Shown here: in pieces, positions 27,537 through 30,946 of the stretch
Position numbering within the stretch: the first letter of the stretch is position 1
How the letters are laid out: each line of letters opens with the position of its first letter
Assembly (NCBI GenBank): GCA_001920395.1
Contig: MNJS01000037.1
Location: forward strand, 1 to 40,871
Source: Thaumarchaeota archaeon 13_1_20CM_2_39_20
GTDB taxonomy: Archaea > Thermoproteota > Nitrososphaeria > Nitrososphaerales > Nitrosopumilaceae
Length of the DNA: 40,871 bases
Reading direction: 5' to 3'
The notes under the pieces: generated by a model
What the model was told of the DNA's origin: nothing
Databases searched by the model: none
Seen by the model: only the letters and a program-made list of their open reading frames with translations
Position numbers and translations under genes: made by a program

Positions 27537-28169
27537 ATGACAACATTTGCTAAGAATTGGCAAAGACCGCAGACACCCGGTATTGGTGAAAGAATCAATG
27601 ACGCGTTAAAGCCAAAAGGTGCTCTAAAACCAAGAATGGAGAGTGCGATAAAACGACTCCAGACTCAGATAGCAAAACTAGACGGAATGGTTACAAAATT
27701 AAAACAAAGAGATGAAAAGTTATTTAAAAGAATTGTAGTTGCAACGCAGCAACATGATCTTACTACAAGTAAAGTCTTATCAAAAGAATTAGCCGAAGTT
27801 AGAAAAGTTACCAAGCTTCTAGGAAATGCCAGAATTGCTCTAGAACAAATCGAGCTTAGGCTCAGCACATTCCATGATCTAGGAGACACCGTCGTAACCA
27901 TCATGCCAACAATAGGCTTGATGAAGAACCTAAGATCATCGCTCATCAAATTCATGCCAGAAGCCGACCGTGAGCTAACAGGCATGACTGAGATGCTCGG
28001 CGGTCTTATGACAGACACATTCCACAACGGCGACTTTGGAATCGACTCCGAAGCTACAACAGAGGAATCAGAGAAAATCTTGCAAGAGGCCGCAGCAGTT
28101 GCAGAGGCTGAAGTCAACAGCAAGCTGCCTTCAATGCCTGCAGGCCAATCTTCTGCGCGCTACATCTAG
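27537..28169 (+). CDS. cdvB: CdvB / Snf7-family ESCRT-III-like cell division protein
   Basis: 210 aa. N-terminal NWQRPQTPGIGERINDAL is followed by the long basic helical hairpin of Snf7 proteins (KPRMESAIKRLQTQIAKLDG through EQIELRLSTFHD), then an acidic segment MLGGLMTDTFHNGDFGIDSE and a helical acidic C-terminus. It polymerises at the division site and is remodelled by the CdvC (Vps4) ATPase. No CdvA or CdvC gene is adjacent; thaumarchaea carry several CdvB paralogues, so which one this is cannot be said. The stop overlaps that of the convergent MFS gene. Confidence 0.92.
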   Translation: MTTFAKNWQRPQTPGIGERINDALKPKGALKPRMESAIKRLQTQIAKLDGMVTKLKQRDEKLFKRIVVATQQHDLTTSKVLSKELAEVRKVTKLLGNARIALEQIELRLSTFHDLGDTVVTIMPTIGLMKNLRSSLIKFMPEADRELTGMTEMLGGLMTDTFHNGDFGIDSEATTEESEKILQEAAAVAEAEVNSKLPSMPAGQSSARYI

Positions 28170-29431
28170 ACTATTTTATTTGATAGTCTGTACCGAAAAT
28201 ATATCAAAAATAAGGCTAGAGAACAGACCAGTATAGCCGAAGAAGATAGAAACAAAGTACCGTAACCAAAGGATTTGGTTAGCTCACCCGTTACAAGCGA
28301 GCCGGCAAATACGCCTACTCCTGTTACCGCACTGTTAACTCCCAGATATTTCCCTTCAAATCCTTGAGGGATACTTTTGAAAAAGATGACAGAACTTGAT
28401 GTGCTAAAGATAGAAAATGCAATTACCATCAAACATGAAGAGACAATAGCCAGAGCAAAGCCCACAGTCCCTATCATTAATGGCAATGAAACTCCAGGAA
28501 TGAGTATGGCTAAAATTCTTGGTATGTATGCTGTAATTGTGGCCCGTTCTTCTCCAATTTTTGCAATCACTTTTGGCGCAATGAAAAAAACAAGCAACAT
28601 AGTTGAAGTCTGAATCAAGTAATTTAAGAACACACCAGAGTTTGAAAAACCATGACTTCTCAAAAACGGTGTCCATGCAGTAAAGTACATGGTACTACCC
28701 AGGTAGAAGAAGAAACTGGCAAAGTAAAAGATCCCAATTTCATTACTTATCTTTCCTTTGAAAATTGTAATTATGTGCTTAAAGTCATACAGTTCAGGAA
28801 TTTTCTGGAAAATAAAGTGATAATGACTTATTGCATATTGCAGTCCTTGCAACGAATGAGCGATACTACTTAGCTCCAGATGAAAACCACCCCCCTTGAC
28901 AGTAGTACTAAGTACCATTGCAGTCCCGCTTGATGCTGCACAGATCAGAAAATATGGCCTTAGGTCAAAATAGAGACTTCCGACAGTTCCAATTGCCATT
29001 GCAACTAACATTCCAAGTGTGCTGATAATCGATGTCCTTGCAAATAGCCAGCTCCACAGATTCTTTTGGACTGATTCCATGACAAGTAGCTGTGTCACTG
29101 GGTTCTTGCCAACCATGAAGAATCCAAGCATGGGCGCAATTCCATAAAGGACAATTATAGAATTCGTAAAATACATTCCAACGCTACAAAGAAGGACAAC
29201 AAAAAATGAAAGAAGAAGTATGGCCCGTCTTGCATGAAATCTATCTATTACTTTGCCCCAGAAAATAGATCCTATTGCAACAGCTCCGTTTTGAAGCGCG
29301 GATATAATTGCGACCTCGCCTATTCCACCGCCAAGAAATATTACGTATAGTGGGATTACTGTACTCAATCCTTGGGCAGTGGCTTGAGACGGAACTAGAT
29401 ACCATATCCATCTCTTATGCTGGAGTTGCAT
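28166..29431 (-). CDS. MFS transporter, 12 TM
   Basis: 421 aa, about twelve hydrophobic segments in two halves separated by a cytoplasmic loop near residues 200-235. The A-motif-like loop GKVIDRFHARRAILL between TM2 and TM3 is diagnostic for MFS. Substrate unknown; efflux or sugar-type carriers are possible. ATTATACAATA (about 29458-29468) is a fitting TATA box about 28 nt upstream. An RNA-like structure with terminal T-run lies on the same strand upstream (29516-29688). Confidence 0.9.
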   Translation of the reverse strand: MQLQHKRWIWYLVPSQATAQGLSTVIPLYVIFLGGGIGEVAIISALQNGAVAIGSIFWGKVIDRFHARRAILLLSFFVVLLCSVGMYFTNSIIVLYGIAPMLGFFMVGKNPVTQLLVMESVQKNLWSWLFARTSIISTLGMLVAMAIGTVGSLYFDLRPYFLICAASSGTAMVLSTTVKGGGFHLELSSIAHSLQGLQYAISHYHFIFQKIPELYDFKHIITIFKGKISNEIGIFYFASFFFYLGSTMYFTAWTPFLRSHGFSNSGVFLNYLIQTSTMLLVFFIAPKVIAKIGEERATITAYIPRILAILIPGVSLPLMIGTVGFALAIVSSCLMVIAFSIFSTSSSVIFFKSIPQGFEGKYLGVNSAVTGVGVFAGSLVTGELTKSFGYGTLFLSSSAILVCSLALFLIYFRYRLSNKIV

Positions 29432-29515: not shown

Positions 29516-29688
29516 AAAAAATTCTATCATGCAGCTGCGTGTGGATTACACGCCATGCGCGGGTGCATCGCACTCTAAGCGATGAAGACCATTGTCATCA
29601 TCTCCGCGGGATTTCCTTTGGTTTGCTTGTGCGGAAGGGTTTTTCCTTGACCACACCGCATGCTCTCTGCATGATTCCTGTTTTTGGG
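29516..29688 (-). ncRNA. Candidate structured RNA of about 150-170 nt upstream of the MFS gene
   Basis: In the gap 29432-29824. On the minus strand a 9-bp closing stem pairs ATCATGCAG with CTGCATGAT (29667-29675 with 29526-29534) and is followed by six T at 29521-29516. Inside, in plus coordinates: TGCGG/CCGCA (29630-29634, 29656-29660) with stacked AAGG/CCTT; CGCGG/CCGCG (29558-29562, 29604-29608) enclosing CATCGC/GCGATG (29566-29571, 29579-29584); GCGTGT/ACACGC (29537-29542, 29548-29553). The four helices form a multi-branch junction. A TATA element at 29711-29718 (minus strand GTATAATT) predicts a start near 29688. A plus-strand TATA-like stretch (29502-29510) is a weaker alternative. Not recognised as SRP, RNase P or a known riboswitch. 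Confidence 0.55.
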
Positions 29689-29824
29689 AGGATGTCCTTT
29701 AACAGGGACCAATTATACGCTACCAAATTATTTAAGTTTTGTGAGATTTCACATCCTAAATTTTGAATTCTTTGCGATTCTTAGAGTTATTATATCATAT
29801 TTGAAATTTCTTTGAAATTTGTCG

Positions 29825-30199
29825 ATGAAAGCTTTTATGATGCAACCACATAGTGCAATCGTGACAAAAGAGGGGGATATTTACCAACTAATTTACGAGT
29901 CGAATCTAGAAAGCAAACTCGAACAGATTCTGATTGGTTTGATGAAAGACAATCCTTCCCCAAAGATTGAAGTCATAATTCGAAGGTTCTTGCTTTATGT
30001 CCAGCACTCGGCAGAAAATTTCTGGACTACGTATTACAGTGCAAAGACATACCAAGAAAAGTTAGATTGCTACTTCCAATATTCAAAGAACCAATGCCTT
30101 GCGACCGAGGTTCTTGCAAGGGACCTCAATTCCTTGTCATCAGATGATGAACTGAAGGAAAACCTTGGTGCAATGCTAAGAGAAAGCTTTACGTTCTAA
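29825..30199 (+). CDS. Hypothetical helical protein (124 aa)
   Basis: ATG 29825; an upstream TTG (29819) is also in frame, but a TATA-like TATATCATA at about 29790-29798 predicts a transcript start between the two. The product is soluble and helical (KIEVIIRRFLLYVQHSAENF, then EKLDCYFQYSKNQCLATEVL). Unknown family. Stop overlaps that of the convergent coiled-coil gene (CTAA 30196-30199). Confidence 0.65.
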   Translation: MKAFMMQPHSAIVTKEGDIYQLIYESNLESKLEQILIGLMKDNPSPKIEVIIRRFLLYVQHSAENFWTTYYSAKTYQEKLDCYFQYSKNQCLATEVLARDLNSLSSDDELKENLGAMLRESFTF

Positions 30200-30789
30200 G
30201 TTAAAGAAGACTCGCTTTTAGGACGCGTTTCTTTGTATTTGGCTATCTTATTGCCTTCTTCGTTTACAACATGATCAATACTCAGGAGTCTCTCTCTGAG
30301 ATTGCCGATTATAGCTGCTACGTCGTCTGCTTCCCTTTCAACCTGGCTTCTCTTTTGCTGAAGCGTCTTTATGCCCAGTTTTTCCTCCTCAATGTACTGA
30401 TCAACCTTTATCAACTTCTCTTTTAGATTCTTAATGTCAACAGATTCGTCTTCGATGCTTTTTTCAAGACCAGTCCGCTTATCTTTTAGATTCTTTATCA
30501 TCAGACCAACATAATCAATTGCTTCCTCGAGCTTTGTTCGTTTGTCCATCAGAGCCCTGATTCCTATGTCATCAGTCGCACTCATACTGGTTTGTTGAAT
30601 AGGCTCCGGTATTTTTACCTGTTCAGGAGGACGAGGTTTTGGTTCTTCAATGACTTCGGGAGTCTGGTCAGGTTTCATCTCCTCTGGTTCATATTCCACG
30701 GTCTTTGAAGCAAGATCTACGTTACCCTCGTCCTTTGTAGGAGGTATGTGTTTTGGTTCGTCCTTTTTCTTACGGAACCTTTCAAACAT
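30196..30789 (-). CDS. Coiled-coil protein built of five exact 21-residue repeats
   Basis: 197 aa from ATG 30789; TTG 30816 lies only about a TATA-box length from TTTTTATATATTG and is unlikely as start. Residues 1-70 are charged and proline-rich (FRKKKDEPKHIPPTKDE, EEPKPRPPEQVKIPEP). From residue 77 the pattern I-x-x-L-x-x-K/R recurs exactly every 21 residues (77, 98, 119, 140, 161, 182), three heptads each. This would form a long continuous coiled coil. It resembles the helical part of CdvA-like proteins but has no PRC-barrel. Probably structural or scaffolding; no enzyme motif. Confidence 0.75.
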   Translation of the reverse strand: MFERFRKKKDEPKHIPPTKDEGNVDLASKTVEYEPEEMKPDQTPEVIEEPKPRPPEQVKIPEPIQQTSMSATDDIGIRALMDKRTKLEEAIDYVGLMIKNLKDKRTGLEKSIEDESVDIKNLKEKLIKVDQYIEEEKLGIKTLQQKRSQVEREADDVAAIIGNLRERLLSIDHVVNEEGNKIAKYKETRPKSESSLT

Positions 30790-30946
30790 ATCGCTTATGA
30801 GTACTGTTATTCGCAATATATAAAAAGTTAATAGATAGAAGAATTGGCAACTTTAGGTTATAGATGGTCTTTTGAGCTTGATTTAGTCGATCTACCAGCT
30901 TGAAGCCAAGATATATTTAGAGAATTGAAAACTTGCTTCTCATTAC

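Follow-up and report, generated by a model that had tools for sequence, protein, structure and literature searches.

A multi-branched RNA encoded upstream of an MFS transporter gene in Candidatus Nitrosotalea is probably an independent RNA gene

A structured RNA element placed shortly ahead of an MFS transporter gene, on the same strand, raises the question of whether it is a switch of the transporter or an RNA with a gene of its own, and the locus allows a clear test between these two readings. In the window (the whole 40,871-nucleotide stretch of DNA that was analysed), the element covers positions 29516–29708 of the minus strand, or about 193 nt, with a start at about 29708–29705 and an end in a T-run that are both predicted from the promoter spacing and the T-run itself. 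The size of the RNA is about 195 nt in the window copy and 170–222 nt in its relatives. Read along the minus strand, a TATA-like box is followed by a 5' hairpin (P1), a branched domain closed by helix P2, the sequence AGAA, and a run of six T. The element forms a GC-rich island in AT-rich flanks, its GC content being 0.49 versus 0.25 upstream and 0.29 downstream, which bears out the sharp contrast pointed out in the earlier note. The folding z-score of the window copy relative to shuffled sequences was -3.2, and values of -5.6, -4.4, and -7.3 were obtained for three homologues. Sequence analysis confirms that the structured RNA element observed in the window is real.

The neighbouring MFS gene (28166–29431, minus strand) encodes a protein of 421 aa (Pfam MFS_1, E 9e-20) and is separate from the RNA; 84 nt lie between the T-run and its start codon, close to the 85 nt originally estimated. 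On the other side, a gene for a 126-aa protein (29819–30199, plus strand) is divergent from the RNA and adjoins it in nearly all loci. This protein has no Pfam or NCBIfam match. Relatives with 31–45% identity occur in genera g3, g11, g15, g16, and g17, where searches of the 126-aa gene locus with filters off found no RNA. In genome G025, the 126-aa protein is matched almost equally well at two places on separate contigs (G025:C46:15715-16089 and G025:C38:18824-19198), reflecting either duplication or assembly redundancy. The end of the 126-aa gene is overlapped by a convergent gene for a 206-aa coiled-coil protein (30196–30816, minus strand), which is conserved in other Nitrosopumilaceae genera.

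The distribution of homologues was analysed in 37 genomes of Candidatus Nitrosotalea, a genus of archaea that oxidise ammonia in acid soils. A blastn search revealed one copy in each of 32 genomes, and a covariance model (R1), the kind of search proposed when the element was first noticed, found a single full-length copy in 33 of the 37, as well as copies in nine genomes of the sister genera g10, g18, and g19. Two of the genomes with no match, G005 and G014, have contigs ending inside the neighbouring genes, while in G001 and G021 the RNA, the MFS gene, the 126-aa gene, and the coiled-coil gene are all missing together, as a result of a gap or a loss. A broader model (R2) detected one more full-length copy, a distant one, in genome G052 of a fifth genus, g6 (E 6.6e-14); it retains the TATA box, P1, P2, the P4 tip GAUGACAAUGGU, P6, and the T-run (TTTTTT). 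Matches in G124 (E 7e-5) and G300 were taken as chance, since both fall within protein-coding genes and do not have the conserved motifs, and the partial and weak matches in G312, G352, and G386 were left out of the counts. When about 60 different genomes, almost all from other genera and families, were searched with lax settings, no further convincing copy appeared.

A secondary structure model of 61 pairs was made by hand from the aligned sequences. The 5' hairpin P1 (29706–29677, minus strand; helices 1 and 2), formed by CCUGUU/AACAGG and an inner GGA/UCC, carries the conserved AAAGG...UCC(U)CCCAAGA, and its column pair 14-38 is AU in 14, GC in 13, and GU in two sequences. The earlier note had described the element from the closing stem onwards; P1, which precedes this stem, is also part of the element. 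The 9-bp stem itself, P2 (AUCAUGCAG at 29675–29667 and CUGCAUGAU at 29534–29526, minus strand; helix 3), is present as described and closes the main domain (29526–29675); 97.7% of its cells are paired, and one species shows a compensatory change at column pair 45-212. Inside it, the element is indeed branched; the original description gave four helices within the stem, and the comparative model shows a two-arm junction there, with four further hairpins on one arm. This arm is closed by P2b (CAUGCG/CGCAUG; 29554–29662, minus strand; helix 4), which shows two-sided changes at three pairs, is short or missing in some species, and surrounds hairpins P3, M, P4, and P5. P3 (29630–29655, minus strand; helix 5) has two-sided changes in six of nine pairs. 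The small middle hairpin M (29608–29619, minus strand; helix 6) is weak in the window copy and poorly supported in Nitrosotalea, where 64% of it is paired, and a GGGA...UCCC form takes its place in the sister genera. P4/P4b (29576–29607, minus strand; helices 7 and 8) ends in a GAC-AAWG-GUC tip that is invariant in the alignment, sister genera included. P5 (29561–29575, minus strand; helix 9) contains column pair 164-175, which is GC in 18 and AU in seven sequences, and the hairpin P6 (CGUGU...ACACG; 29536–29552, minus strand) forms helix 10.

The model was evaluated on a structure-blind MAFFT alignment of 29 homologues (A1), in which standard pairs made up 90.1% over the 61 pairs. Two-sided (compensatory) changes were found in 25 of the 61 pairs, compared to a shuffled mean of 14.5, and the covariation score was 0.192 versus 0.120 in shuffles; none of 500 shuffles was as high in either measure. 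When the pairing partners were slid, pairing fell to 32–50%, and the covariation of the model was above that of all slid controls, although this control favours the model because the latter was drawn from the same sequences. In a structure-fitted alignment of 41 sequences, with the sister genera added, 40 of the 61 pairs had two-sided changes. The minimum-energy fold of L003 agrees with the comparative model helix for helix; RNAalifold paired the P5 and P6 arms differently, and its version was rejected, since the two-hairpin version pairs better and equals the L003 fold. By these comparisons, the element has the covarying secondary structure of an independent structured ncRNA gene. No reading frame is open across the homologues on either strand, and each frame is interrupted by stops in nearly all of them; with lengths modulo 3 also evenly spread, a protein-coding element was rejected.

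The region upstream of P1 appears to contain a promoter of the RNA gene. The TATA box suspected there is found as the TATA-like CTTAAATAA at 29736–29728 of the minus strand; about 10 nt ahead of the predicted start, a GTA is also conserved. P1 opens with TCCC, which in 41 of 43 loci lies 23 nt from the centre of the TATA box, and 22 and 25 nt from it in the other two. Because this distance is constant even though the intervening sequence varies, it suggests that transcription of the RNA starts at P1. At the other end, a terminator-like T6 run (29521–29516, minus strand) comes after P2 in the aligned homologues; it was reported to follow the stem directly, and the run is there, with AGAA separating it from the stem. 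At the sequence level, the element has a conserved promoter of its own and a terminator-like end.

Taken together, these data are very probably explained by an autonomous ncRNA gene of Nitrosotalea and its close relatives. From the conservation, structure, promoter spacing, and independence from the MFS gene that can be read in the genomes, we infer that RNA polymerase would start at P1, or within a few nucleotides of it, from the RNA's own TATA promoter, and that transcription would stop in the T-run that follows P2. The product would be compact, with a length of about 195 nt and exact ends that are predicted. This RNA would fold into the 5' hairpin and the multi-branched domain and could act in trans, most likely by binding protein. 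Protein binding, considered by itself, is in our opinion an evenly balanced proposition. It is suggested by the conserved letters, which occur in P2 (where CAUGCA/UGCAUG hardly varies), at the tip of P4, in P1 including the internal loop AAAGG...CCAAGA, and in P6: they sit in helices and small closed loops, with no conserved unpaired stretch of a length that could guide base pairing. Compared with antisense pairing, shape recognition by one or several proteins, or tertiary contacts, seems to account better for such a pattern.

Antisense action is common among archaeal sRNAs, and the RNA could accordingly be a trans-acting sRNA that pairs with mRNAs; it would then still be an independent gene, with its promoter and T-run, and would differ in its mode of action. 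The UCCUCC in the P1 loop resembles an anti-Shine-Dalgarno sequence. However, this motif is partly paired (P1b) and is gone in L008 and L120, which keep the P1 fold, so an anti-Shine-Dalgarno loop in P1 was rejected. At 90% identity, no conserved unpaired run exceeds 4 nt (AUCC), and we consider antisense pairing unlikely.

Much less probable is a cis-acting leader or riboswitch, in which transcription would start at the TATA box of the RNA and a ligand would decide between a stop in the T-run and read-through into MFS. The RNA and the MFS gene are on the same strand, with MFS 81–128 nt downstream in nearly all loci, and the RNA ends in a stem followed by a T-run. The four genomes with no detectable RNA (G001, G005, G014, and G021) also lack a match to MFS, but two of these are contig breaks and the other two lack the whole locus. 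Against the leader stands a conserved block, GATAGACAAAACC...TTCAAATGGATTATACAATA (29501–29459, minus strand), located between the T-run of the RNA and the start of MFS. It includes the TATA-like TTATACAATA (29468–29459, minus strand), a candidate TATA box of MFS that lies about 33–35 nt before the start codon in both Nitrosotalea and the sister genera. Since this candidate promoter sits after the T-run and so close to the start codon, the MFS mRNA would be almost leaderless. The block is kept from Nitrosotalea to the sister genera and is decayed in the MFS-less L004, where the candidate TATA box is degenerate; it is probably the MFS promoter together with an upstream regulator site. The conserved 5' UTR position characteristic of riboswitches was not found at these loci, as the RNA ends ahead of the candidate MFS promoter and occurs without MFS.

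The loci where MFS is absent are also at odds with the leader. Four species retain the RNA after MFS was deleted or decayed: no MFS is present in genomes G008, G020, and G031, and in G035 (L005/L091) it is reduced to a fragment with stops. In G020 (L006) and G031 (L010), a CdvB-like gene, which lies beyond MFS in the window, directly follows the RNA. The flanking order is kept in this clade, from the 126-aa gene through the RNA and then, in L006 and L010, the CdvB-like gene. Within the MFS-less group, the RNA is structurally intact, with identities of 77–94% for the RNA and 81–87% for its promoter versus 27–53% for the 80 nt downstream. On a tree of two neighbouring proteins, the four species group together with modest support (82); the MFS losses therefore probably go back to a single event in one clade. 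The g6 copy is located among other genes with no MFS beside it, and the neighbouring gene is, by reading of the locus, a candidate RNA 3'-phosphate cyclase-like gene.

The earlier note had left open a stand-alone RNA or a terminating leader that responds to the transported compound. The first part is strongly favoured by the promoter spacing, covariation, T-run, and persistence of the RNA both without MFS and in another neighbourhood, while the second part finds no support, given that MFS has its own conserved candidate promoter and that four species keep the RNA after MFS loss. Because the RNA is kept where MFS was lost, an independent RNA gene is the probable reading rather than a transporter switch. 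Nevertheless, the RNA may have a functional link with MFS or the divergent 126-aa gene, since MFS was found beside it, when its position relative to transporter genes was examined, at every locus studied except five.

A divergent box C/D or H/ACA guide RNA, RNase P RNA, or SRP RNA can be practically dismissed: the UGAUGA in P4 of the Nitrosotalea copies resembles box C but sits inside a helix and is lost in the sister genera, no conserved CUGA is present in the alignments, and the sR44 and sR39 matches in Rfam are at chance level. At the gathering threshold, Rfam 15 detected only tRNA in the window and no family for the element, for which searches at E up to 10 gave only sub-threshold chance matches. 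The source genome encodes archaeal RNase P RNA (RF00373) at G000:C5:19456-19733 (E 6.8e-55) and archaeal SRP RNA (RF01857) at G000:C1:2744-3056 (E 6.1e-26); since both are found elsewhere and the element matches neither, its identity with either is refuted in these genomes. A match to a known family such as SRP or RNase P, which the earlier note named as grounds for abandoning its candidate, was thus not obtained in Rfam.

Judged by these comparisons, the autonomous RNA is an orphan structured ncRNA by broad kind and represents a new, uncatalogued family for which no known relative was found. Because it is elaborate, conserved in the genus and its sister genera, and retained when a neighbouring gene is lost, it probably serves a need of the cell. 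It could tentatively be proposed that the RNA represents a new class, abundant, bound to protein, and similar to housekeeping RNAs, which is limited to the Nitrosotalea lineage and has a role unlike that of any known archaeal RNA, although we regard this as somewhat doubtful. What gives the RNA its significance is that no family catalogued in Rfam matches such an elaborate, genus-wide RNA that extends to sister genera, and it offers a concrete target to seek in cultured Ca. Nitrosotalea devanaterra. A literature search found no paper on an ncRNA of the Nitrosotalea lineage. Seven small RNA genes are mentioned in a passage of the paper on N. devanaterra, with no further detail given there (PMC4836417), and the RNA locus may therefore have been annotated earlier.

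Among known systems, the raiA motif RNA (ModT) is also roughly 200 nt in size. As described for ModT, it resembles the element in being compact, highly structured, independently encoded, and widely conserved within lineages, and occurs in Bacillota and Actinobacteria (PMC11706538); it is thus bacterial, unlike the element, which gives no Rfam match to it, and the likeness is one of analogy only. The archaeal RNase P RNA (RF00373) and SRP RNA (RF01857) are, like the element, multi-branched archaeal ncRNAs with one copy per genome, but they are separately present in these genomes and distinct from it. Transporter-leader riboswitches, such as the crcB/fluoride riboswitch found in both bacteria and archaea (PMC2864571), share with the element a structured RNA upstream of a transporter and a stem followed by a T-run. 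Unlike them, the element precedes a candidate promoter that belongs to the transporter itself, and it persists where the transporter is gone.
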